Shown one piece after another: positions 46,126 to 64,000 of a DNA stretch of 64,000 nucleotides. How positions within the stretch are numbered: the stretch's first letter is position 1; each line of letters opens with the position of its first letter. The DNA lies in assembly GCF_022201045.2 (NCBI RefSeq), contig NC_068557.1, forward strand, positions 3,844,001 through 3,908,000, given 5' to 3'. Source of the DNA: Citrus sinensis (taxonomy: Eukaryota; Streptophyta; Magnoliopsida; Sapindales; Rutaceae). The translations under genes and the position numbers were made by a program. The notes under the pieces were generated by a model. It was given only the letters and a program-made list of their open reading frames with translations. It was not told the DNA's origin and did no database searches.

Positions 46126-46734
46126 TAAGGGGTGATTCTATAAATCAAAATGTATTTGTCAAAAACTTTAATTTGCAAATGTAAATTATTGTTTAAGTAC
46201 TTTTTTATCGGATACTAAATCAATTCCTAAAATAAAAAAAAGATGTCAAAAATAATTTAACCTTAATAAACTATTTCAAAATACAGGTATGATAGAAAGT
46301 GACGGAAAAAGCACTATTTGGTAAATCCATTTTTAATTTTCGTTTTCATAGATTCCAAGGTACAGAATAATTGACGCATATCAAAATGTTATAGGTGGGT
46401 GATTTTCATGTGACATGAAATCATAGAGTGTACCATAAAATTTCTCAATCAGTTGACTTGGCTGATCACCAAAGTATGAATGTACCAAAAGTTAGAAAAA
46501 AATTATGGTTTTAAAGCATGCCATTTGTCTTGCAAGTAGCATGGCTCCAACGTTATCCAATAATTAGCATTTGTAATTGGCACCATCCTTAATATTTATG
46601 TGGATTTAAATTTTTCTTTGAAGAGGTAGAAATTTTGATTCCATATTTTAAAACTACTTGAAATTATCATGTGTATATAAATTTTTAAAATTTTCAATTT
46701 TATCCTTATTTAAAATTGAAAGCTCAAACCCTCA
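46126..46734. other. AT-rich gene-free stretch
   Basis: Nothing recognisable. The copia remnant begins abruptly at about 46735, probably at a deletion junction. Confidence 0.4.
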
Positions 46735-48554
46735 TATTTTGTTCGATTGATCAAGTATGCTGCGGATGCCAGTGCTTCTCTCCAATAAAATAGTGGCATG
46801 TGGGCTTGGATTAGTGATACTCGAACAACTTCTAGTAAATGTCTGTTTTTTTGTTCAGCAACGCTATTTTGTTGGGGTGTCCCCACACAAGTGGTTTGAT
46901 GGACAGATCCTTGTAATTTCAGAAACAGTTGAATTGTTGTGCTCATATACTCACCTCCATTATCAGTATGTAGAACTCGAATTTGTGTATGAAATTGAGT
47001 CGTCACCATCTTATGAAATCTTTGAAATATGGAGTTTACTTCATCTTTTGATTTCATCAGAAAAATCCATGTCATTCTGCTACAATCATCAATAAATGTA
47101 ACAAACCAACGAGCACCTTCAATTGTAGAAACTTTAGATGGCCCCTATACATCATAATGTGCTACCATGAAAGGAACTGTATTTTTATTTAAGGACAATA
47201 GAAAAGTAGTTCGATGGCTTTTTGAAAGTTCACAAACATCACATTTAAAGTTACAAACATCAAATTTCAGAAACAAACTAGGAAATAATTTTTTTAAGTA
47301 ACCAAATGACACATGCCCTAAACGTCTATGCCATAACCAAATTTCTGATTTCCCTTTTTTTATGGAACTATCTGCGACTAGTGTGGGGCTTGACTTTCCA
47401 GTGTTTGTTGATGACATCTCCAAGTAGTACAAGTTGCCTCGTCTAATACCATAATCAATTGATTGCTTTGTTTGGATGTCCTTAAACACACAATGATCAG
47501 GCCAAAAAATTACAACACATGATAAGTAATTGATTAATTGAAACACATATAAAAGATTATAATCTAAAGATGGAACAATTAACACAGAGTCTAAATTTAA
47601 TTCATCTGTGAGTCGTAAAGATCATTCCCCAATAACTGAGGTTGTGGTTTCATTTGCAGTGGAAATATATTTTTGTGAAGATGGTTTCAATTGAGAAACT
47701 TGTCGAGAATCAAAAGTCATATGATCAGTTGCCCCAGAATCAATTATCCATGTACTATTAATAACAGGTGCAAGAGTTTTAAGGGCCTTACCTGGACTGA
47801 CAGAGGTTGCGATTTGTACTGAAGATTCTTTTCTAAGATCTGTAGTGGATGTGGATTCAACTATTGTAGTTTTTTATCCATGCTTGGTGTTCTTCTTTCG
47901 AGTATCCCATCAGTCAGGATATCCAATGATTTCAAAACATTGTTATTTCGTATGACCCTTTTTTCTACAATGAGTGCAATGGAGTGATGACTTGTCAACA
48001 AGCTTCCTTTGAGGCTGCTGTCGTGCTATCATAGCAGACGTTTCTGAGTCGACCTTCTTGTTTAGTTTGCTTTGCCGTACATCTTCTCTTCGGATCAGAG
48101 AATAACATTCTTCTAAGTCTGGGATAATATCTTTTCGTAGAATTTCTCCACGAACTTGGTCAAATTCTTCATCTAGCCCAGCAAGAAAAATGTGCACTCT
48201 CAATCTTTCAACAGACCTTCTGTATATTACAACATCTTCTAGATCCTTCATGACCACTTTATCTCGGTGATCAAGTTCTCGAAATATTTCGATCAATTCT
48301 CCATAGAATTTAGAGAGTGGTTGTCCATTTTGCTTGGTAGAGAATGCCTTCTGGTTTAGAGTGAAAACTTGTAATTCATCGCTTCCATCATAGAAGGCTT
48401 TTGATAATGCATCCCAGATTTCGTAGGCTGTAGGAATTCGTAAATATCACTTCATTATCTCCGGAGACATGGATATGAGTAACCATATTTTTACTTTTTG
48501 GTTCTCACTATACCATTTCTCATATTCATTTGAAGATTCCTCAAATGACTTTGT
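46735..48554 (-). mobile_element. Ty1/copia remnant, main part (gag, protease, part of integrase)
   Basis: Read on the minus strand from 48554 down: gag (UBN2-type; FYDGSDELQVFTLNQ, AGLDEEFDQVRGEI), a zinc knuckle CTHCRKKGHTK near 47945, the protease active site TWIIDSGATDHM near 47740, the GAG-pre-integrase WLWHRRLGHVSFGYL (about 47325), and the integrase core with HTDNGGEY and GTPQQNSVAEQKNRHLLE (46800-46960). The frame breaks around 48450, 47890, 47600 and 47100. After NRT at about 46735 homology stops, so reverse transcriptase, RNase H and one LTR are missing. The start of the same gag lies at 61192-61030, beyond the inserted gypsy element. Confidence 0.88.
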
Positions 48555-48559
48555 GCTGC

Positions 48560-49887
48560 TGTTGAGTGTTAGAAAATGCATATTTATAAAGGAGAAAACC
48601 GTCATTTTACATTTCAAGTCTTACTAACAACCCTTACTTTTATGTTTTTAACATTCTTGTGATTTAATTACGTTTGTTTTATTTTAATTAAGTAATTTAT
48701 GTATTTTAGGGGCATTATAGTCATTTCACAATAAAGGAGAGATCAGACGGCAAAACGGACATCACTTTTGAACTCAGGACGGTCGAAAACTTTAGGAAGA
48801 GCATAAAAGGAAAAATGGCACTATTCACATGTACGGTACTATTCACGTATACGGTACTGTATACGTTACTGTTCACAGCACTGTTCACATAGACGGATCG
48901 ATGACGTGGCATTGACTGATGATGTGGCATTGACTGATGAGGTGTCACAATCCTGTTGGACTAAAATTCTTATGTACTGTTGATGGTGACGTGGCAGCAT
49001 ATCAGTGGACGAAAAATCTCGCGTACGGTGCATGCATCACACATGATTATTTTCAACCAAACCGTGTTACTGTTCATCCGGGTCAAACCGTGGACTGTTG
49101 ACTGATGACGTGGCGCAATCCTGAGCGTCCAAACTGTTTTTAATTCGATGACCATAATTTACTCCATGTATCTATAAAAAGGGGGCCTCCCCCCCTAATT
49201 TGATATCTCTGAATCCCTTTTTGGGATCCATTTTCTGTAATTCCTTCTCCATCTTATATTTTCTTCGTATTTTAATAAATTCCCATTTTGCCTCTAGTTC
49301 AATTATGAGTGGCTAATTTTCTTTCAAGCTTGGGTTGAAGGTGAAGTCTCAACATGTGTCATGGGCTTTATTTGGTAAATTTATTTTCTCTTCCCCTCTA
49401 GTTTTTGTGGATGTTTTGACTTCTCGTCGACAAATAATGCTAATCTTGTCTAGTACCGCCTTGGTTTCACCGGCCCTCTAGTACAAGGTTATTATTATTT
49501 GGCACGATAAGCCCTTAGCACCATATTGATTAGAGCGTGGTTCATGAGGTGTGGATTCCCCCCTCATGATTTAATGGCATTAATAATGAATATTTAGCCC
49601 ATGATGCATGTTGATACGGATTCAGATACCCAAGTATGTCAATTTAATAGATTTTCTCTACAATTTATTCTCTCCATTGCAATTCTAATTTTAGAATTTA
49701 TTCTCGCCATTTTAATTTAAGTTTTAGCTTATTCCAAATCACTTCCACTATAAATCCAACCACTCATTTACAAAATTAATTCTACACATAATTAAAATCC
49801 ACCTCCTCGTGGGATCGACACTCGTCACCATTGATCTATACTACAATAGATTCGTGCGCTTGCGAGTACATTAAAATTTGCACAACA
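48560..49887 (+). repeat. 5' LTR of the Athila-type element
   Basis: 1328 bp. U3 contains tandem blocks of GATGACGTGGCATTGACT type (about 48900-48945) and of TACGGTACTATTCACG type (about 48832-48890), then a TATA box at 49172. Confidence 0.95.
49172..49180 (+). promoter_or_regulatory. LTR TATA box (5' LTR)
   Basis: CTATAAAAA followed by GGGGGCCTCCCCCC, a near-palindrome at the likely transcription start. The same arrangement is found at 60308-60316 in the other LTR. Confidence 0.7.
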
Positions 49888-49890
49888 AGT

Positions 49891-49913
49891 TTTTGGCGTC
49901 GTTGCCGGGGAGG
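49891..49913 (+). other. Primer-binding site of the Athila-type element
   Basis: TTTTTGGCGTCGTTGCCGGG starts three bases after the LTR. It matches the complement of the tRNA-Asp 3' end used by Athila elements (TGGCGCCGTTGCCGGGGA) except for one C-to-T change. Confidence 0.75.
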
Positions 49914-50373
49914 TAAGTAATTTTAATTCATAGAATTAATTTTTGTGAATAATTCCATTTAAATTATTTTCTTGTATTTTTTTTATAAAAAAAAGTGAAA
50001 AAAAAGAAAAAAAATTGAATATACATTTAAAGGTTAGTATTTCTTTTCTTTTTCTCTTCTTTAAAATTCTGTAATTTAATTTTCAATTTATTTTTTTTTC
50101 TTTTTAATTTTTGTTTATTTTATTAATTTAATTTTTAGTTAATTTATTTCACGTATTTATTTTTGTGTATTTTTATAGAAAGGTTGTAATAGCGCAATAA
50201 GGTTAGTATCGTAATTTCTTCCTCTTCTTTATTTTTATTTGTTTTGTTCCCATCATTATTTTTATTTGTTTTGCATGCATGGTTGAAGGTCATTATTACC
50301 TAATCTTGAACCTATAGACATTGAATTAGAAAAAACACTTTGCACACAAAAGCACATTAAAAATAAATTTGGA

Positions 50374-52953
50374 ATGGATTTACAAGCACCACAGGAGAGG
50401 CCATTTAAGGATTATTTCAGTCCTTTAGCTAATTTGAGCACATCATGCATAAGATACCCAAATGTAGCTGCTAGGAGTTTTGAACTAAAACCTAGTGTGC
50501 TAAATTGTCTCCCAACATTCTATGGCCTAGAAAATGAGGACCCATATAATCATCTGAGTAATTTTCATGCCATTTGTCAAACTTTTAAATATGAAAATTT
50601 TTCAGACGATGATGTTAAACTCAGATTATTCCCATTTTCTTTAAAGGATAGAGCTCGTTCATGGTTAAATATTTTACCTGCTAATAGCATTTCATCATGG
50701 GAACAAATGGTAATAAAATTTTTGAATAAATATTTCCCAGTGCATAAAACCAATGCTATTCGCAGGGAAATCTCGGAGTTTACCCAGAGAGAGGACGAGC
50801 AGTTTTTCGAAACTTGGGAGCGATTCAATGGGCTACTCTTGAAGTGTCCACATTATGGGTACGAGAAATGGCACCAATGCCAATACTTTTTGGAGGGATT
50901 ATTGCCGAATGTGCAAGAATGACTAATGGCAACAAGTGGAGGAGAACTAATGTCAAAAAGTGCATAAGAGATTTGGGAATTCTTCCAGCGACAAGCAGAT
51001 AATTCCCAACAACGGAGTCGATCACTCAGGAATACTAGAAGAATTAAGGGAGTGAATGAGGTTCACATTGGCGAATCTAGTTCAGAAATTAAAGAAGTCA
51101 AAGCAATAATTGAAGGTCTCTCTCGACAAATAGCATCGTTATCGACTGCTAAATCAACAGAGCCTGACCCTGACTCATATCCAGATCAAGCCAATGCCAT
51201 AGGTGTAATGAGAAAGCCTTCAAATTACAACCCATACTCCAACACATATAACCCTGGATGGAGAGACCACCCAAATTTTTCATGGTCTCAAGGATTCCAA
51301 CAGAATGGACCAGCAGCTCTAGCTCCACCAATGCAACAAATTCCTCAAGTTTCTCAAGCCTCTCAGCCACCATTTAGACCATACAATCAGAACCAGAACT
51401 ACTCTCAGCCCAGACCATGGGAGGATGCATTCCAGAATTTCAAAAATGTTACTCACTCCATGATTGAGCAACAGAACCGTACCATTGATGGATTACGAAA
51501 TGAGTTGAGAGCAGGCTTCAATTCACAAGCCCAATCAGTTTCAAGCCTCGAGAAGATGGTGGGACAACTTGCTTCTTCAGTTCAAACTTTGGCAATGACT
51601 GTTGAGAAAGGCAAATTTCCAAGTCAACCAGTGCCTAACCCTAAAGGAGTACATGAAGCAAGTACCAGTTCACCACAGCAGCATGGAGAGGTCAAAACAG
51701 TCATGACCTTGCGAAAAGGAAAAGAAGTCGACAACAAAGTGGAGATGCCGGTGACAAAAGAAAATCAAATTGTACCTGTGAGTGTTGAGGACTCACCATC
51801 GGAGGAGAAAGAAGAAACCAACCCACGAGAATACGTTCCGAAAGCTCCATTTCCTCAGAGGTTAGCGAAAGGAAAGAAGGGAAAATCCACAGGTGAGATT
51901 CTTGAAATCTTCAAACAGGTAAGTGTTAACATTCCTTTGCTTGATGCTATTAAACAAGTTCCATCTTATGCCAAGTTTCTTAAAGACCTTTGTACTAAAA
52001 AGAGAAATATGCATGTTCAAAAGAATGCATTTTTAACAGAAAACGTTAGTTCTATACTCCAATATAAAATTCCTTTAAAATGCAAAGACCCAGGCTCCCC
52101 CACTATCTCGTGTAGTATAAGGAACCACACAATTGAGAATGCTTTGTTGGATTTAGGAGCTAGTGTAAATTTGTTGCCTTATTCTGTATTTGTGAAACTT
52201 GGACTGGGAGAATTACACCCAACTCCAGTGGTGTTACAGCTTGCAGATCGGTCCACGAAAATACCTCGTGGTATTGTGGAGGACGTGCTTATCTAGGTAG
52301 ACAAGTTTTATTTTCCTGTTGATTTCATTGTAATTGACACTCAACCAATACAGGATTCGAGGAAGCACATCCCCATTATTCTAGGCCGACCTTTCTTGGC
52401 AACTGCGGATGCTCACATTCAATGCAGGACCGGAAATATGCAGTTGTCCTTCGGCAATATGACTATAGAACTGAACATCTTCAACATTGCCAAACAATCT
52501 CACAGTGCAGATGATGGAATTGTTGATGTGGATTTAATTGAAACAATAGTTGATAATACTTTTTTTTCAAACCTTAGTGATGATCCTTTACAAACATGTT
52601 TAACTCACTTTGGTTTGGATTTTGATATTGACAGATCGGTCGATGAGGTCAACGCTTTACTTGACTCAGCACTATCCATGGACACTAATAAATGGAAGTC
52701 AAGAGTTGAACAACTAGCACCATCAGAAAAGAAACTCATTCCATCATATGAATCACCACCGAAACTCGAGCTCAAACCATTGCCCAACACATTGGAATAT
52801 GCATTTTTGGGAGAAGAAAGTACTCTGCCGGTAATCATCTCATCATCCCTAAATGACGAACAAAAAGGTAAGTTGTTGGATGTTTTAAAAGAGCACAAAG
52901 GAGCATTAGGATGGACCATAACGGACATAAAAGGTATAAATCCAGTAGACTGA
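50374..52953 (+). pseudogene. gag and protease region of the Athila-type element
   Basis: Gag starts MDLQAPQERPF at 50374. A retrotransposon capsid domain follows (FYGLENEDPYNHLSNFH, LKDRARSWLN, then WEQMVIKFLNKYFP). A frameshift at about 50919-50922 and a TAA at 50965-50967 break it. The reading then continues from before 51052 to 52296 with a Pro/Gln-rich linker and the aspartic protease motif DLGASVNLLPYS (about 52150). A TAG at 52294-52296 interrupts it. ILGRPFLATADA follows, then the linker to RT, ending at TGA 52951-52953. Only point lesions are seen, so decay is young. Confidence 0.9.
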
Positions 52954-54642
52954 ATGCATTACATTCACCTTGATGAAAATGCTAAATCTACTAGGGAAAT
53001 GCAACGTCGGTTAAATCCTAATATGAAAGAAGTTGTTAGAACTGAAGTCCTTAAGCTATTAGACACATGTATCATTTACCCAATTTATGATAGTTCATGG
53101 GTCAGTCCTGTACAAGTTGTCCCCAAAAAGTCAGGAGTCACAGTAGTTACCAATGCCGATAATGAATTGATACATACTAGAGTAACTACATGATGGCGTA
53201 TATGCATTGATTATAGAAAGTTGAATTCTGTCACATGTAAAGACCATTTTCCTTTACCATTTATCGATCAAATGCTTGATAGATTAGCAGGCCATGAATT
53301 TTATTGCTTTCTAGATGGCTACTCAGGATACAATCAGATCCCCATAACACCAAAAGATCAAGAGAAGACCACTTTCACTTGCCCTTTTGGCACATTTGCA
53401 TATAGGAGAATGCCATTTGGATTATGTAATGCACCTGCTACATTTCAACGATGCATGTTAAGCATTTTTTCTGATATGGTTGAACGATTCCTTGAAGTCT
53501 TTATGGATGATTTTTCTGTCTTTGGTGACTCGTTTGATCAATGTTTACATCATCTAACACTAGTTCTGCAGAGATGTATCGAGAAGAACTTGGTCTTAAA
53601 TTGGGAGAAATGTCATTTTATGGTAAAACAAGGTATTGTTCTCGGTCACATCATTTCGAACAAAGGTATTGAGGTTGGCAAAGCCAAGGTGGATCTCATT
53701 TCTAATCTTCCTCCACCTAAAACAGTCAGAGAAGTAAGATCTTTCCTTTGGCATGCTGGTTTTTATAGACGTTTCATTAAAGATTTTAGCAAAGTTTCTA
53801 GACCCTTATTCAATCTACTTGCTAAGGATGTACCTTTTGTCTTTGATGATTCATGTCTTGTGGCATTTGGAAAATTAAAACAGTTGTTGACATCATCACC
53901 CATCATTCAGCCCTCAAATTGGAGTTTACTATTTGAGCTCATGTGTGATGCATCTGATTATGCAGTAGGAGCAGTATTAGGACAAAGAGTTGATCGAATT
54001 CCCCACGTTATTTACTATGCTAGTATGACATTGAATGATGCACCGTTGAACTATTCAACTACTGAAAAAGAAATGCTAGCAGTAATGTTTGCATTGGAAA
54101 AATTTCGATCTTATCTCATTGGTTGTAAAATAATTATATTCACAGATCATGCTGCTCTTAAATATCTTCTCACAAAGAAATATGCAAAAGCTAGACTAAT
54201 TCGTTGGGTGTTACTTTTGCAGGAACTTGACTTGGAATTCAAAGATAAGAAAGGGACAGAAAATGTTGTGGCGCACCACCTCTCTCGTCTCCATTTTGAC
54301 ACAATTACAGAGCCATTAATATTGAATGAGTCATTTCCAAATGAACAATTAATGAGTGTGGAAGTATTACCATGGTATGCTGATATAGTTAATTATCTTG
54401 TTACAGGTAAACTTCCTGAGCATTGGACCAAGCAAGACAAGGCTAAATTCTTTGTAGAGATAAAGATTTTCTTTTGGGACGACCCGTATTTGTTCAAGTA
54501 TTGTGCAGACCAAATTGTTAGACGATGTGTCCCAGAAAGTGAAATTCAGAATATCCTTTCATTCTGCCATGAACAAGCTTGTGGAGGCCATTTCAGTGAA
54601 ATTCAGCGACTAAAGTTTTACAATGTGGTTTCTATTGGCTAA
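52954..54642 (+). pseudogene. Reverse transcriptase and RNase H region of the Athila-type element
   Basis: RT blocks: VSPVQVVPKKSG, then [43 protein letters not shown], and the catalytic box VFMDD (53497-53511), FMDD being an Athila-type variant of YxDD. RNase H follows ([43 protein letters not shown]), then the integrase zinc-finger region ([10 protein letters not shown]). Lesions are a TGA at 52951-52953 entering the domain, a TGA at 53191-53193 and a frameshift just before 54642. Otherwise the domain residues are present. Confidence 0.92.
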
Positions 54643-54695
54643 CTATATTTCGAGACGCTTATACTTTCTGTTCTTCATGTGATAGGTGTCAACGA

Positions 54696-55664
54696 ATGGG
54701 AAGCATTACAAGAAGGAACATGATGCCACTAAATCCAATTTTAGTGGTTGAGATTTTTGACGTATGGGGTATCGACTTCATGGGACCCTTTCCTCATTCT
54801 TTTGGCCATCAATACATATTGGTTGCTGTTGACTACGTATCAAAATGGGTAGAAGCAATTCCATGCAGAACCAATGATCACAAAGTGGTGATAGGATTTT
54901 TGAAAAGCAACATTGTTTCACGCTTTGGATTCCCTCGAGCAATAATCAGTGATGGTGGTGCCCACTTTTGTAACAAAGCATTCAAAGCTCTTTTAACAAA
55001 GTATTTAATCACACACAAAGTGGCAACCCCATATCATCCGCAAACCAGTGGCCAAGTTGAGATCTCCAATCGAGAAATAAAGCACATATTAGAAAAGACG
55101 GTGAGGCCAGACAGAAAAGATTGGTCATTAAGACTTGATGATGCATTATGGGCATATAGAACGGCTTTCAAGACCCCGATTGGGATGTCACCCTACAGGC
55201 TAGTGTATGAAAAAGCTTGCCACCTACCTATGGAACTCGAGCATCGTGCATATTGGGCCATCAAAAAATTCAACTTTGACATGCAGCAAGCCAGCTCAGA
55301 AAGAAGATTACAACTGGCAGAACTTGAAGAAATTCGCAATGACGCATACGAAAATGCCAAGATTTACAAGCAACGGATGAAAGTCTTTCATGACAAACAA
55401 ATTATGAGAAAATCGTTCACTCCAGGTCAGAAAGTGCTTTTATTTAATTCTCGTTTGCACATATTCTCAGGTAAGTTACGCTCTCGATGGTCTGGTCCCT
55501 TTATTGTTCATACTGTTTTTTCACATGGGGCAATTGAAATTAAGGACCCAAAGAACGGTGTCACGTTTAAAGTTAATGGTCAAAGATTAAAGTCATATCT
55601 AGAGTACCAACCACATGGAGAAGACACCGAAATAAATTTGAGTGACCCACCAGATTTGAATTGA
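54696..55664 (+). pseudogene. Integrase core and C-terminus of the Athila-type element
   Basis: It continues the polyprotein after a frameshift. The DDE triad is visible: D in VWGIDFMG (near 54770), D in IISDGGAHF (near 54950) and E in [13 protein letters not shown] (near 55055). A C-terminal [16 protein letters not shown] domain follows and the frame ends at 55664 without a chromodomain. This segment has no internal stop, but it cannot be made as part of a polyprotein because of the upstream shift. Confidence 0.92.
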
Positions 55665-55786
55665 TTTTTTTTCTTTTCGTTGATTTGATTTTTTTTCTTT
55701 CTTTATATTATTCTTCTGCTAATTGAAATTATTTTTGCATAAGTGTGTTTGTTTAACTATTAAGTTTTCTTTTATCATTTTTAATA

Positions 55787-55981
55787 ATGAGTACCTTACT
55801 TAGACCGTTCCTCCTGAACATTCTTAAACCACTTCAACGTGTCAAAACTCATCTCAAAAGGCAGATTCAATTTTGTAAAACACATCGCATTTGGGCTCTA
55901 CAACCACCAGAGTTAGTAGCCTATGTTGAGGGTTTAGAACGCCAACTCAGTGACATTGAGAGAAGTGTTTACGACATCTAG
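55787..55981 (+). CDS. Small open frame downstream of integrase (64 residues)
   Basis: It starts at an ATG and encodes a basic N-terminus (LKPLQRVKTHLKRQIQF) and an acidic, probably helical end (VEGLERQLSDIERSVYDI) that could form a short coiled coil. I recognise no family. It lies between integrase and the Cys-rich open frame, at the place where related elements may have an env-like gene. It may be real or chance. Confidence 0.35.
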   Translation: MSTLLRPFLLNILKPLQRVKTHLKRQIQFCKTHRIWALQPPELVAYVEGLERQLSDIERSVYDI

Positions 55982-56161
55982 TTGGAGCTAGAGGTAAATT
56001 CAATAAGAGGACGATTTTGATTTTCTTTGTGTGTTTTAATTTGTTTTTCTGTTTGTGTGCTTTAGTTTGTTACCCCGGTGAAGTGGCGAATAACGGTACT
56101 CCGTGACAATCAAGTCGGTTACTTTAGTTTCCCATAATAACTGATATTCTGAGGTGAAGGT

Positions 56162-56620
56162 ATGGACAGAAACGAGATTCTAGCGAAACTTCACAAGCGA
56201 TTCCCTTTACTTCCTCAGAATGCCCTCCTTACAATCTATAAAGCTCGGTCCGAACGCATGCGATTACTCATGAGGAATAACATACCTGCTGACATCCATT
56301 GGTTAATCGAAGCTAAAGTACGATCGACAGGTGAGTTACCTCCAAAATTTATTGCATACATGCCTGGTTGTGGTAAAGGAAATTATGCAAGAAAACGACG
56401 AGCTCGAAGAATTTTTGTTGCTTGTCATAAGTGCGCCAGAATGAGTTGCAATAAAAACCCATGTTCTTTAGGAATGATGTCTGATAACATGGAAGATAAG
56501 ATTCAATTCATTAGAGATGGCTTGAATAAGGAGTCATTGGATGATATCCTTTTGTCTCTTGAAACGTATCCCAGTGGATATGTGCAAGGAGCGATTCTCC
56601 AGTTATGGCCATTATTCTAG
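56162..56620 (+). CDS. Cys-rich basic protein, carlavirus-type nucleic-acid-binding-like, inside the retroelement
   Basis: 152 residues, intact, starting at a clear ATG. The centre has a basic stretch YARKRRARR (75-83) followed at once by a four-cysteine cluster, C88-x2-C91-x4-C96-x4-C101, then SLGMMSDN. A GxGxxxYAxRRRAR arm followed by a CxxC...CxxxxC finger is the signature of the small Cys-rich nucleic-acid-binding proteins at the 3' end of carlavirus and allexivirus-like genomes, several of which suppress RNA silencing or bind DNA. Here the finger loop is shorter. The N-terminal half (helical, RMRLLMRNNIPADIHWLIEAKV) also fits that layout. The C-terminal 40 residues (LNKESLDDILLSLE) do not. 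The similarity is by eye. A host zinc-finger origin is possible. It is not part of known gag-pol. Confidence 0.6.
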   Translation: MDRNEILAKLHKRFPLLPQNALLTIYKARSERMRLLMRNNIPADIHWLIEAKVRSTGELPPKFIAYMPGCGKGNYARKRRARRIFVACHKCARMSCNKNPCSLGMMSDNMEDKIQFIRDGLNKESLDDILLSLETYPSGYVQGAILQLWPLF

Positions 56621-56673
56621 AAAGAGCATGTACGATACAGTCTTGGGAATCTGACTATAAACGACCCTGTTTG

Positions 56674-56708
56674 CCAGTTTGTAAGAAAACTGGATAGGAA
56701 GCCTATCC
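56674..56708 (+). other. Two adjacent perfect hairpins between the extra open frames
   Basis: CCAGTTT/AAACTGG (loop about five bases) and GGATAGG/CCTATCC (loop AAG) lie next to each other and share the GG at 56692-56693. They lie between the Cys-rich and the LOG-like frames. Their function is unknown. Confidence 0.5.
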
Positions 56709-57037
56709 TCGACCCATAGAGGGCGTTCAAGCCGTTTCTGGACGTAAAACCAGAGGAAGATGTGAGCCACAGTCGCAACTACCTGTAAATATCCTTTTAC
56801 TTTATTGTTATTTTATTTCACTATTGTCTTATTGTTTGCATTATTATCTTTAATAATTTTATTACTGTTTGCTTTTTCTTTTTTACTGTTTTCTTTTTGA
56901 CTTGTGAGCCACGTGTTTTATGCGTTATTTGACACTGACATATTACCTCATACACAACCATGACCCACTATCACCAAGACTCTTAAATGTGATATCTTTT
57001 GTCAAGCACTCACAAATTATTTTTGAGAAGTATCGCA

Positions 57038-57706
57038 ATGGCAGCTACTCCCAATAGACAATTCAAGAACATTTGTGTGCTTTCCGGATTTACCTATGGC
57101 AAACATAAAGAGTTCGTTGAGGCAGCCATAGATCTTGGCCGAAGCATAGCAGCGAGAAATTTACACTTGATGTATGGAGGAGGTAATCGAGGGTTATCGA
57201 AAATGATCTCAGAAGCAGCTTTTATCAGAGGCAGCCAAGTGTTAGGCATCATCCCAAGAGTTCTAAAACCATTGGGTAGTTCGTCTGACTCATCAACTGG
57301 AGAAGAGTTAGTCGTCTCAGGTATGCAAGAAAGAATAACTGAAATGCTTAATCATACTGATGCTTTTATTTTCCTTCCAGGAGATCTTGCAACACTAGAG
57401 GCACTTATCACACTAGCATCTTGGGCCCATCTGCACATTCACCAAAAATCAATCGGTTTGTTAAATGTCAATAACTTTTATGATGGCTTTATCGCATTTC
57501 TTAACCATGCAATAAAAAACTATTTCATTCCTTCTAATGTGAAAAAACTTTTTATTTGTGCTCACACTGCTAATGAGCTATTTGATATGTTACAAACTTA
57601 TAAACCGGAGCCGAACCCCTGGACCTTTGTGTTGGAGCGTCCAAATAATGATGGTAACAGTAGCGGCAGTAAGAAGTACAAATTAGATTTAACTCTCCGC
57701 CTGTAA
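57038..57706 (+). CDS. LONELY GUY (LOG)-like protein carried by the retroelement
   Basis: 222 residues from an ATG in good context (CGCAATGGC), with no stop or frameshift. The whole chain follows the plant LOG fold: ICVLSGFTYGKHKEF (family CGSSxGKxxxY), the nucleotide-binding YGGGNRGL (46-53), VLGIIPRVLKP, MQERITEML (96-104, family MHxRKxEM), DAFIFLPGDLATLEALI (108-124, family PGGxGTxxE), SWAHLHIHQKSIGLLNV and NYFIP. LOG enzymes release free cytokinin from its riboside monophosphate. In this copy the His of MHxRK is Gln, the Lys is Ile, and PGGxGTxxE reads PGDLATLEA, so two glycines and the last Glu are changed; Arg99 and Glu121 remain. Activity is therefore doubtful. The extended Ser/Asn-rich C-tail is not typical. 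It sits inside the gypsy element, 417 bases after the Cys-rich frame and 1960 bases before the right LTR. No intron remains, as expected for RNA-mediated capture. Confidence 0.85.
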   Translation: MAATPNRQFKNICVLSGFTYGKHKEFVEAAIDLGRSIAARNLHLMYGGGNRGLSKMISEAAFIRGSQVLGIIPRVLKPLGSSSDSSTGEELVVSGMQERITEMLNHTDAFIFLPGDLATLEALITLASWAHLHIHQKSIGLLNVNNFYDGFIAFLNHAIKNYFIPSNVKKLFICAHTANELFDMLQTYKPEPNPWTFVLERPNNDGNSSGSKKYKLDLTLRL

Positions 57707-57889
57707 ATATTTTCTTCTGTGTTGCACCACCCAGGTGATGTCTTCTACACTCTACTTCTTTCCTTTAAAACATTGAGGACAATGTTTCGTTCTGGTTGGG
57801 GGGAGGGAATAGTCGACAAATGTGGAATCTTGGTTAAGTTTTTACTAATTTTTTGTTGTAGAAACTAACTGTTGCTAACTTTTTGTGTT

Positions 57890-57935
57890 GAAGATGGCTG
57901 AATATGGAGTGTAGTTACTCTAGAAACGCATCTTC
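57890..57935 (+). repeat. 46-bp direct repeat, copy 1
   Basis: GAAGATGGCTGAATATGGAG... is repeated at 58047-58092 with two differences. Each copy begins GAAGATG and ends CATCTTC, so each can form a hairpin. Confidence 0.93.
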
Positions 57936-58046
57936 ATTGTTCAAAAAAAAAAACCAAAAAAAAATTCTTTTTCTTTATTAAGTTTTGATGTTCATTTTTC
58001 TTCTTCTTTTCTCCTCTATAAATATACATTTTCCAACTTTTGAGTC

Positions 58047-58092
58047 GAAGATGGCTGAATATGGAGTGTAGTGCCTCTAGAAACGCATCTTC
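58047..58092 (+). repeat. 46-bp direct repeat, copy 2
   Basis: Second copy of 57890-57935. Both copies are followed by a run of A. Confidence 0.93.
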
Positions 58093-58234
58093 TTTAAAAA
58101 AAAAAAAACCATTTTCTTTTCCTATCATTTTAAGTATAACTTTTCTAATTAGGTTTTCTGCATCATTTTCGCATTTCTTCATGCATATTTTCCTTTAATG
58201 CTTAGAATAGGTTGGGGGGTAGAATGTTGTTTTA

Positions 58235-58235
58235 A

Positions 58236-58318
<83 letters not shown>
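58235..58318. repeat. (TA)n(TG)n microsatellite
   Basis: About ten TA units run directly into about thirty TG units. Confidence 0.97.
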
Positions 58319-58319
<1 letters not shown>

Positions 58320-59652
58320 TTTATTTTAACATTGGATGACTTGATTAATTTCAAATTTTAGTATTTGTATTATCTTTGGTCTTAAGTGATGTTACGTTAT
58401 GTTTGCTACTCTACATGTTGATGTCGGAGACAAATGTGAGTTGCTTGAAGGAATGAACATGTCATAATAAGTACCAAGTGAGTTTTTGAGCCTATTATTT
58501 TTCTTGGAGAATAACCATTTTGCCCACTCTTTATACAGCTTAACAGTTTATTATTTTACACACGATCTCTAAATTGCTTTTGAGTTAATCCTTAAAAAAA
58601 AACTGTAAAATAAAAAAAAAGAAAAAAATGTGTGTTGTTACATTGGGAGGCCCATCTAACTAGTAGATATGGATGATTATTTAGAGCCCTAAAAGATGAT
58701 GGAAAGGCCATCTTTGATCCGTTTGAGCCTTTCTAGCCATCCTTTTTATTAAATATCCATAGTTAACCCTTTTGAGCCTTTAAAAAAAAAAAAATCTTTT
58801 CTTTGTCAACTTATCATCTTGACCCACTCCGATTTGGAGTATTACCCGATGTCTTATAAGTTTCATCACCTATTTATGTTTGAGAAAAATGTAAATAATT
58901 ATTTTGTTCAGTGAAGTTATGCCAAGCAAAACAAAAAAAAAAATAAAATAAAAGTTGTTGTTTCAAAAGAATAAAAATAACAATAATAGGTGAAATCCAC
59001 TTTGCAACGTCCAAAAAAAAAAAATTCTCTGCATTTTTCTCAAACATACATTTTGTTTTCCTTATTTTCCTTCTTTGTTAGCCATATCCCTAGCCTACGT
59101 TACGTCCTAATAAAAGTCCTTCTTGATTTTAGGGAACTATAGTTTGAAGTAGAAGCTAATTATATGGGCTAAAAAGATGTAGTGATGCATAATTAAAAAA
59201 AAAAGAGATAAATAAAGTGGGTTGACTAGCATTTTTGTTTGACTTGAGATTGTATTATTTCTAAGTTGTGGGCATATTTATTTCATCTTGGTGAAAGCAT
59301 GTGATATCACTCCTTTATTATTTTCTCTCTCAATTACCATTCATTGGAATGACTATTTTTATTGGTTTTAATTTCTTTGTGAGAGTGTCACTACTTCCAG
59401 TGAGATTTTGGGGTTTGACATGTCATTCTTGAAAGTAGCTATAACAAAGTCTACTGGGCTAATTCATGTGGATGGTTGATGTGGGTGTGATGTTGCTTTA
59501 GACTGGAGATAATGCTTATACTTTTATTTGATTGCTATCATTAATCTGATTGAATAAACACGAGTGTTTCTAAAAAATAAAAATAAAAACAAAAAAAATC
59601 ATTTTGAATTTGAATTTTGTTTTCGCTTTATTTGCTAGAGACTAACAATAAG

Positions 59653-59666
59653 TTGGTTGGGGGGTG
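59653..59666 (+). other. Polypurine tract of the Athila-type element
   Basis: TTGGTTGGGGGGTG immediately precedes the right LTR. Confidence 0.7.
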
Positions 59667-61024
59667 TGTTGAGTGTTAGAAAATGCATATTTATAAAGGA
59701 GAAAACCGTCATTTTACATTTCAAGTCTTACTAACAACCCTTACTTTTATGTTTTTAACATTCTTGTGATTTAATTACGTTTGTTTTATTTTAATTAAGT
59801 AATTTATGTATTTTAGAAGCATTATAGTTATTTCACAATAAAGGAGAGATCAGACAGCAAAACGGACATCACTTTTGAACTCAGGACGGTCGAAAACCTT
59901 AGGAGGAGCATAAAAGGAAAAATGGCACTATTCACATGTACGGTACTATTCACGTATACGGTACTGTATACGTTACTGTTCACAGCACTGTTCACATAGA
60001 CGGATCGATGACGTGGCATTGACCGATGATGTGGCATTGACTGATGAGGTGTCACGATCCTGTTGGACTAAAATTCTTATGTACTGTTGATGGTGACGTG
60101 GCAGCATATCAGTTGACGAAAAATCTCGCGTACGGTGCATGCATCACACATGATTATTTTCAACCAAACCGCGTTACTGTTCATCCGGGTCAAACCATGT
60201 TACTGTTCATCCGCGTGGTCAAACCGTGGACTGTTGACTGATGACGTGGCGCAATCCTGAGCGTCCAAACTGTTTTTAATCCGATGACCATAATTTACTC
60301 CATGTATCTATAAAAAGGGGGCCTCCCCCCCTAATTTGATATCTCTGAATCCATTTTTGGGATCCATTTTCTGTAATTCCTTCTCCATCTTATATTTTCT
60401 TCGTATTTTAATAAATTCTCATTTTGCCCCTAGTTTAATTATGAGTGGCTAATTTTCTTTCAAGCTTGGGTTGAAGGTGAAGTCTCAACATGTGTAATGG
60501 GCTTTATTTGGTAAATTTATTTTCTCTTCCCCTCTAATTTTTGTGGATGTTTTGACTTCTCGTCGACAAATAATACTAATCTTGTCTAGTACCGCCTTGG
60601 TTTCACCGGCCCTCTAGTACAAGGTTATTATTATTTGGCACGATAAGCCCTTAGCACCATATTGATTAGAGCGTGGTTCATGAGGTGTGGATTCCCCCCT
60701 CATGATTTAATTGGCATTAATAATGAATATTTAGCCCATGATGCATGTTGATACGGATCCAGATACCCAAGTATGTCAATTTAATAGATTTTCTCTACAA
60801 TTTATTCTCTCCATTGCAATTCCAATTTTAGAATTTATTCTCGCCATTTTAATTTAAGTTTTAGCATATTCCAAATCACTTCCACCATAAATCCAACCAC
60901 TCATTTATAAAATTAATTCTACATATAATTAAAATCCACCTCCTCGTGGGATCGACACTCGTCACCATTGATTTATACTACAATAGATTCGTGCGCTTGC
61001 GAGTACATTAAAATTTGCACAACA
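59667..61024 (+). repeat. 3' LTR of the Athila-type element
   Basis: 1358 bp, nearly identical to 48560-49887. It carries an extra duplicated segment of about 30 bp with GTTACTGTTCATCCG near 60173-60215. The TATA box is at 60308-60316. Confidence 0.95.
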
Positions 61025-61029
61025 GCTGC

Positions 61030-61793: not shown

Positions 61794-64000
61794 AAAGAAT
61801 GCTTAAATATGGTACCTACTACCTATGTTTAAGCTTGACCTGATTTAGGTGTTATTAGTTCAATTATTCGGACTAGAGCGACATCTAGTCTACGAACTAA
61901 GATTTGGTGTTCACATGAGCTTGAGCTTGTCCTTTGTATCGAATCAACAATTATGATTTGTCTAACATGAATTCTACATAAGTTTTAATTGAATTTTAAT
62001 CATTAATTCAATGAAATGTTCAACACAAATTTAATTACACATCAAATCTTTATCCCTAATCTATGTTATAATTAGAATTATTAAAGTTTAGGAATGACAA
62101 TGGGACAAGAATCATGCCCCATCCCTAAACTTGATCCTCAAATTCGTCCTATACTTGAAATTTATTATTTTAGAGATGAATTGAAAATATCTTTTAAAAT
62201 TTATGATTGAGGCAGCGGATAAAATTAGGGTTCGATCTCCAATCCTGTTAATATATAGATTTATCTTCAAAATAAATAAAGTATTAAGGAAAGAATATCA
62301 ATGGATCTTTACATTAAAAGAAATTGTTTTTACATACTTTCCCAGCATCCAAATATACAACAAACATATTCTAAATCATTTTCTTTAACTGAATACTCCA
62401 ATTCAAATTTTTGGAGAAATAAGAGTCAGAAATTAAACTATACTTCACCCACTCTTATCTTTCAAAAGACAACAAGAAAATAAAGGAAAAAAGATATGGG
62501 AACATATGTCAATAATGCTATCTTATTTTAATTGAATTTTTAATAATGTGTTCATATTAATTAATTTTATTATTAATTATTAACTTTTATTTTGATAATC
62601 TATAAAATTATTACATGTAAGATGTCGTATTAATAAGTATCTTAATTAAAAATTCAAAATTAGTAAGCATAGCATTATTCAAACACATATCATAAAAACT
62701 AATAATTTGACATATATATTCGAATTATGGATGGATTTTGACCTATGTTGATACTTCGAACCCTGTATTTATTATACTTTTGATATTTTTATTAGTTCAA
62801 TTGTTCACACTAAAGCGACATATAGTCTACAAACTAAGATTTAGTGTTTAGATGAAGTTGCGTTCATTATATGCATCAAATCAACAATTAAGATTTATCT
62901 AACATGAGTTCCACATAAATTTTAATTAACTTTTGATCGTTAATTCAATACTTAACACAAATTCAACTACATATCGAATCTTTATCCCTAGTTAATGTTA
63001 TGCTTAATATTATTAGGCTATCATTTTATAGGGATAGCAATAGGGCGGATTTGGGACAGGAATCGTGATCCCGAGCCCCATCCCCAGACCCACCTCATAG
63101 CTGAAATTTATTATTTTTGGGATGGATCGGGAAAATAGTAGAGAATCCTCAAATGGGGCAAGTGATAAAATGCCCAACCTATCAATATGTAGATTTTTCT
63201 CAGGAGAGAGCGTTGATGTGTCTTTACATTGAAGGAAATTATTTTTATATACTTTGTTAGCATTCAAACATACAACAAACACATGCCAAAAAAACACAAA
63301 ATCCAAAAAGGCCTAATAACAGAAAACATACATTTCCAGATCTACGAGATTCAAAGAATTATCAAACCAGCCACATGATCACAAAAATCCAGTCATTAAT
63401 CATGTTTATAGATGTATTTACCTAGTGGGTCTTGCAAAGTTTTGATGTTTTCTTTATTGATCAAAGCTCATATTTTTATCTTCTTTTATTCAATTTGTTT
63501 TCAAACCTATGAGCAAAAAGTACTGAATCAAAGATCCAACCCGACCTGATTCGTTTATGTGCTTTGGCTGAAGCCTTTCGGAGGGTCATACTCATACCCC
63601 ACTCAAATTAGTCGGACCTCTCGGATTCAGATGCCTGCGGGGATTGTTCCCGTCCCTACCTTTTCCCTGTGAGTTAGGCAAAGCTTAAATATCATGTTTA
63701 CATTTAACTGCTGCATCATTTGTTCAATAATTGGATTACAGAATAGTAATACAATTATCAATCTCAGGTGTCTCCTATTCAAAAGATCTATGATTTAATT
63801 GTATGCGCTTTTGAATGAAAACTGACAAACTTGATAGTTTTTTTATTCATTCAGTTAATTTTGGGCTGTACAGAATTTCAACCCAATAATCCAAATCCCG
63901 AAAGAAATTAATAAGAACTACAAAATTAATATAGACTTTCCCACTCTATATCTTTCAAAGGAAGACAAAAAAAAAAAAAAACAAAACAGAATTGATACGG
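61794..64000. repeat. Duplicated block, copy 2 (runs off the window end)
   Basis: Same orientation and order as 23089-25200, ending mid-match (AATTGATACGG at 63990-64000 matches 25189-25199). It has a deletion of about 190 bp and about 320 bp of unrelated sequence at 63565-63885. Near-identical short open frames inside both copies (24420-24713 and 63013-63306) reflect this duplication, not genes. Confidence 0.9.

Follow-up and report, generated by a model that had tools for sequence, protein, structure and literature searches.

The window (the whole 64,000-nucleotide stretch of Citrus sinensis DNA that was analysed, C2:3844001-3908000) contains an LTR retrotransposon spanning positions 48560 to 61024, the features of which are collected in Table 1. 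The borders of the element, originally called from matching LTRs and a GCTGC duplication, were confirmed, with LTR ends reading TG...CA and GCTGC present on both sides. Over the 1358 columns of a blastn alignment, the two LTRs show 25 mismatches at 1328 ungapped positions (1.9%) and two gaps that together take up 30 columns. At a substitution rate of 1.3e-8 per site per year, this divergence would put the insertion at less than one million years ago. As had been predicted, the LOG-like frame was located between the integrase and the right LTR, but it shares this region with a second extra gene, the NABP-like one, which had been overlooked.

Table 1. Positions of the element and its features in the window
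Feature	Position	Strand	Basis
Left target-site duplication GCTGC	48555..48559	.	read directly
5' LTR, 1328 bases	48560..49887	+	blastn of both LTR regions; ends read
Primer-binding-site-like sequence TGGCGTCGTTGCCGGGGA	49894..49911	+	read directly
gag and protease region, three separate frames (50374-50922, 51052-52296, 52396-52953)	50374..52953	+	Pfam scan of first two frames
Reverse transcriptase and RNase H	53221..54642	+	PF00078, PF17917, PF17919
Integrase	54696..55664	+	PF00665, E 1.1e-15
NABP-like extra gene, basic stretch and Cys-rich finger, 152 codons here	56162..56620	+	Pfam and relatives
LOG-like extra gene, 222 aa, no intron	57038..57706	+	ORF, Pfam, homologues
Codons of PGDLATLEA, replacing the LOG loop PGGxGT	57377..57403	+	codon pattern, alignment
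Codons of the EAR-like C-terminal tail LDLTLRL	57683..57703	+	codon pattern, selection comparison
3' LTR, 1358 bases	59667..61024	+	blastn; ends read
Right target-site duplication GCTGC	61025..61029	.	read directly

The gag and protease frames matched PF03732 (E 1.5e-19) and, below the family cut-off, PF13650 (E 0.00099). Since gag-pol is spread over five separate frames, the window copy is probably defective and not autonomous. Assignment of the element to Athila is plausible. Within Ty3/gypsy, the Tat clade is marked by an aRH domain (PMC6317226), and among the six ORFs scanned with Pfam (short broken frames left out) reverse transcriptase, RNase H and integrase were present and no second RNase H family was found. 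Neither was the Athila ORF-1 family PF03078 detected in these six ORFs, though it is reported for just 16% of Athila elements (PMC6317226). Upstream of the element, on the minus strand at 46710-48296, lie fragments of another retroelement with a GAG-pre-integrase domain (PF13976, E 4.4e-18) and a weak PF00665 core below the cut-off. Judged by the former domain, these fragments are presumably copia-like. A 161-base direct repeat (82% identical, 61852-62012 and 62789-62949) is also situated outside the element, and inside it, in the noncoding stretch 57890-58100 on the 3' side of the LOG-like gene, a stretch starting GAAGATGGCTGAATATGGAGTGTAG was seen by eye to occur twice, approximately 157 bases apart.

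The LOG-like frame encodes 222 residues from its ATG, or 235 if an upstream TTG is used. The protein scored above the family cut-offs of both PF03641 (E 1.8e-25, 90 against 27 bits) and TIGR00730 (E 4.7e-34, 117.7 against 96.35 bits), and it matched Arabidopsis At2g37210 over residues 7-190 (4e-44), which bears out the proposed family membership and near-full-length colinearity. Over these residues, the identity to the plant LOG enzymes At2g37210 and At5g11950 is approximately 38-40%, but the element protein differs from them in having PGDLAT in place of PGGYGT, around 30 extra C-terminal residues ending in LDLTLRL, and no introns. The score against the NCBI equivalog model for LOG enzymes, NF058542, was far below the cut-off (83.6 against 300 bits), though this is weak evidence since the model serves for naming bacterial and archaeal proteins. 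The lack of introns is what capture from an mRNA would produce. In L073, the one host LOG gene looked at, introns separate the gene into several blocks, and the last exon, read by eye, lacks the LxLxL end. AlphaFold models of the two extra proteins had mean pLDDT values of 37.5 and 47.9, too poor for a check of the fold.

The LOG-like gene is a family gene of the element. Whole-genome searches of the 299.7 Mb assembly (11 contigs) with codon patterns returned 938 exact copies of the GDLATLEA loop (0 in the control) and 1032 of the tail followed by TAA or TGA (4 in the control), the tail pattern also admitting Phe for Leu and Ser for Arg, which supports a multicopy gene. The exact pattern PGGYGTxEE matched once (0 in the control), in a host LOG gene, but may miss other host LOGs because it needs an unbroken exon. 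The PF03641 search yielded 1560 first-look candidates, and each of the 150 best, which were scored, lay above the cut-off and was free of stops inside the match. When the window protein was used as the query, the best 150 of 2101 candidates were 94-100% identical to it and constitute subfamily A, two of them with a stop, while the best 150 of 2106 candidates for a second query, P0100, included two more groups, subfamilies C and B. L070 and P0095 stand for a fourth subfamily, D. With an Arabidopsis LOG as the query, the best 150 of 1758 candidates included long single frames, 41-45% identical, which we read as element copies. In the protein database, the LOG-like protein had 518 matches, and every organism-named one among the 120 matches listed was from Citrus x changshan-huyou.

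Among the loci L001-L068, 47 were full-length, open and correctly stopping, comprising 30 of 30 in A, 8 of 8 in B and 9 of 30 in C, where the proportions for A and B are biased because both were top-scoring picks; the other 21 C loci were not intact. The end of the integrase was found upstream of the LOG-like gene, in the flanking DNA near the loci, for all 30 A loci and three C loci. Further upstream, it was also found in a B copy, with 73% over the full length of the integrase, and in a C copy, as three pieces at 67-78%. All six copies read, which come from subfamilies A, B and C, contain a tract rich in pyrimidines (33-34 of 40 bases by raw count): in the window it lies at 56830-56910, and in L003, L009, L013, L017 and L059 approximately 180-205 bases upstream of the LOG-like gene. 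Such a tract could mark a 3' splice site, in which case the LOG mRNA would be spliced.

Selection on the LOG-like gene was assessed by the NG86 method on ten chosen copies from the four subfamilies, with codon bootstraps for eight pairs. Between subfamilies, dS was 0.51-1.14 and dN 0.12-0.20, giving dN/dS values of 0.15-0.27, and the upper 95% bootstrap bounds were 0.23-0.38 in all eight pairs tried. Within subfamily C the ratio was 0.30-0.63, which is expected if every insertion decays once in place. The noncoding spacer between the NABP-like and LOG-like genes, which is T-rich, partly gapped and possibly constrained itself, showed 76-78% identity when subfamilies A, B and C were compared, corresponding to a distance of approximately 0.26-0.29, lower than dS. 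Measured against this yardstick, the ratio for dN is only about 0.4-0.65, so constraint on the body of the protein may be moderate. Purifying selection, for which a dN/dS well below 1 among copies had been proposed as the test, is thus supported on silent sites, and more weakly against the noncoding spacer.

In an alignment of 14 sequences including At2g37210, At5g11950 and PA4923, the element copies carry PGDLAT where plant LOGs have PGGxGT. The third loop residue was Asp in all 47 intact loci and the fifth was Ala in 46 and Val in one, while PGGxGT was found in none of the 120 LOG homologues listed out of 518 matches. The YGGG loop is kept, and so are, in all 14 aligned sequences, R99 and E121, the arginine and glutamate general to LOGs. 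A loss of the catalytic Glu, which the string PGDLATLEA might suggest, was ruled out, since PGGLGTLEA in the PA4923 LOG identifies the first Glu as the invariant residue, and this Glu is retained. In PA4923, which is likewise named a LOG in the PDB, the first Glu is followed by Ala, so that of the changes only the replacement of the two glycines speaks for a loss of activity. The replaced loop makes LOG activity doubtful, though some could remain given the retained R99 and E121, and judged by the loop the protein is probably no longer a cytokinin phosphoribohydrolase. The suggestion that the element influences local cytokinin or sequesters its precursor is weakened by the replacement of PGGxGT in the copies examined.

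Of the 47 intact loci, to which this count applies (some broken-frame copies also have a broken tail), 46 end in LDLTLRL and one in LDLTLCL, and all have LxLxL within the last 12 residues. The motif was found in the same position in 50 of 56 full-length database homologues (219-225 aa) and, with shorter and longer proteins included, in 83 of 120, both counts among the matches listed (120 of 518). In all six between-subfamily pairs, the last seven codons showed no replacement changes but 1-5 silent ones, while 24-35% of replacement sites differed in the linker immediately before the tail. Given the 24% difference of the spacer, the chance of zero changes at approximately 15 replacement sites is about 0.015 for one pair, which points to selection on the amino-acid sequence of the tail. 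LDLTLRL at the C-terminus conforms to the definition of an EAR motif (LxLxL or DLNxxP, often C-terminal), and DLTLRL differs at a single position from the minimal repression motif of SUPERMAN, DLELRL, LxLxL being the more frequent EAR form (PMC6479872). A precedent for a non-host protein with LxLxL at its C-terminus is the pathogen effector HaRxL21, which binds TOPLESS via a C-terminal LMLTL; this, however, is a secreted oomycete effector with proven binding, while the present protein is the product of a retroelement gene and a putative binder (PMC7446885). The motif by itself does not suffice for binding, as ten other LxLxL effectors tested in the same work failed to bind TOPLESS (PMC7446885). 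The tail is thus a strong lead, not proof, for a putative EAR motif and TOPLESS binder, and TOPLESS/TPR proteins would be its likeliest target.

A homologue of the second extra gene was present upstream of the LOG-like gene in 63 of the 68 loci, and a genome search with the NABP-like protein gave 1802 candidates, the best 150 of which were free of stops inside the match. The window copy has 152 codons, compared to approximately 185 in the intact A copies read, and fell below the cut-offs of PF01623 (E 0.0055, 15.1 against 23 bits) and PF05515 (E 0.022, 17.1 against 20.9 bits), but its relative P0159 was above both. Among 26 relatives scanned at E up to 0.1, PF01623 was hit in 16 and PF05515 in 8, and eight other families were each hit in one or two of the relatives, among them PF03641 via a fused gene model. 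In 40 relatives taken from a profile search and scanned at E up to 1e-3, PF05515 was found in 31 (best 1.1e-8) and PF01623 in 29 (best 1.9e-7), and no other family was detected at that threshold. The profile search returned 1027 proteins at E up to 1, and the 120 matches listed include Citrus, Populus, Acer and Xanthoceras entries, from which it may be that LOG joined an element already carrying the NABP-like gene. NABP-like proteins (e.g. P0257, P0260 and P0302) are abundant in plant databases and homologous to plant RNA-virus proteins.

The dN/dS of the NABP-like gene was 0.18-0.26 for A against B or C, where dS was near saturation (0.92-1.69 for A against the other subfamilies), and 0.29-0.30 for B against C. 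The frame was open in one of five C copies read (L017), the others stopping after 5, 5, 7 and 44 codons. With the NABPs of carla-, allexi- and mandariviruses (PF01623, PF05515), the element protein shares profile-level homology and a basic stretch followed by a Cys-rich finger. The viral cysteine-rich proteins are described as carrying an NLS and a zinc finger, and a citrus mandarivirus member suppresses local silencing (PMC12172455). The element gene differs in sitting in a retroelement, and silencing suppression, known for the one viral protein described there, is putative here (PMC12172455). Transfer could have run in either direction between virus and element. When viral contigs were scanned with the LOG alignment and with the NABP alignment, no relative was found.

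Copy number, retention at dN/dS below 1, the loop change, conservation of the tail and homology of the partner to virus proteins are each supported by the data, and the joint occurrence of retention, loop change and tail suggests a change of job from enzyme to adaptor. We infer that the spliced mRNA of a LOG gene was captured in the distant past by an Athila-like Ty3/gypsy element, which has retained it as an accessory gene, and that the change from PGGxGT to PGDLAT probably abolished cytokinin phosphoribohydrolase activity. The LOG fold, which forms dimers in known relatives, would now be a nuclear scaffold from which EAR tails are offered to TOPLESS/TPR co-repressors. The outcome might be either titration of the co-repressors, relaxing silencing of the element, or their direction to chosen chromatin or otherwise to the benefit of the element, while the co-inherited virus-type zinc-finger NABP may bind element RNA or counter RNA silencing. 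As a whole, a captured LOG repurposed as an EAR-tail scaffold with an NABP partner is the explanation we favour, tentatively. Its more specific form, a two-protein counter-silencing module in which a virus-shared zinc-finger NABP works together with a catalytically dead LONELY GUY engaging TOPLESS, is possible but rather doubtful. In either form, a gene that once coded for a cytokinin-activating enzyme may now serve the element in manipulating its host.

Among the other explanations considered, the most probable is that the protein is an accessory of the element particle or of nucleic-acid handling, its tail docking to an element protein instead of TOPLESS. The position of the gene between the integrase and the 3' LTR, its co-inheritance with a nucleic-acid-binding-type gene and selection on the tail all suit this idea, but the tail comes within one residue of a hexapeptide with known repressor function and the element partner is still only postulated, which leaves the idea unlikely, though a credible contender. 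Somewhat less probable is an active LOG, or one of altered specificity, which would hydrolyse a nucleotide monophosphate and shift local cytokinin or nucleotide pools such that cells divide and the element replicates. The near-full-length family matches, the retained YGGG loop, R99 and E121, and the whole-frame dN/dS below 1 are what such an enzyme would show; PGDLAT in place of a PGGxGT that none of the 120 homologues listed carries, and the score far below the NF058542 cut-off, speak against it, and the conserved tail is left unexplained.

The tail is likewise unaccounted for if the protein poisons or partners host LOG enzymes, forming mixed dimers that lower active cytokinin. This would be consistent with the altered loop and with LOG-like sequence over residues 7-190 (about 40% identical to At2g37210), but the predicted models are too poor for the interface to be judged, and we consider it improbable. 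Lastly, a neutral fragment copied along with the element is largely contradicted and the least credible of all. Most A copies among the matches listed are near-identical and thus young, C copies decay, with 21 of 30 not intact, and the comparison of dN with the noncoding spacer is permissive; a neutral sequence would nevertheless not be expected to give dN/dS of 0.15-0.27 between subfamilies at dS of 0.5-1.1, nor a tail devoid of replacements beside a fast linker. A one-off passenger is similarly not favoured by the copy number and dN/dS, though the spacer comparison is less clear-cut.

The original prediction knew of no described LOG-bearing family, but a LOG (YgdH) domain is already reported in the consensus sequences of LTR retrotransposons from C. 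sinensis and C. clementina, a finding called 'in line with' Steinbauerova et al. 2011 by its authors (PMC9289625). The existence of LOG-bearing Citrus elements is therefore not new. These Ty3/gypsy consensuses share domain, kind of element and genus with the one studied here and very likely represent the same family; the passage on the LOG/YgdH domain says nothing of an altered loop, an EAR-like tail, selection or an NABP-like partner (PMC9289625). The same paper provides a further parallel in the AlkB-type RNA demethylase of orchid Ty3/gypsy elements, likewise a cellular-type domain fixed as an extra ORF in a plant gypsy lineage, though catalysis was shown in vitro for that enzyme, whereas LOG-like activity is doubtful here (PMC9289625). 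What appears to be new, as far as can be judged from the literature searched, is the PGDLAT loop, the EAR-like LDLTLRL tail with silent-only codon changes, and a second gene homologous to virus NABPs. No mention of altered loop, tail or NABP partner was found in the literature searched, mostly titles and the beginnings of abstracts with few subscription journals, and no transposon-borne EAR protein or NABP was described in these titles and abstract openings. We know of no mobile element previously recognised to use the EAR/TOPLESS interface that pathogens use.

If the favoured scaffold explanation is true, retrotransposons would, like pathogens, mimic EAR motifs toward TOPLESS co-repressors, and a hormone enzyme would have been repurposed as a scaffold. 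The accessory genes of plant LTR elements, the roles of which are largely unknown, would thereby gain a concrete, testable function and a link to a plant RNA-virus protein family. Hundreds of element copies are also liable to annotation as cytokinin-activating enzymes in citrus genomes, as UniRef names already do, and such misannotation would distort studies of the LOG gene family. Four annotated Citrus gene models (P0030, P0037, P0078 and P0088) join NABP-like and LOG-like frames, and these are either annotation artefacts or real fusions.
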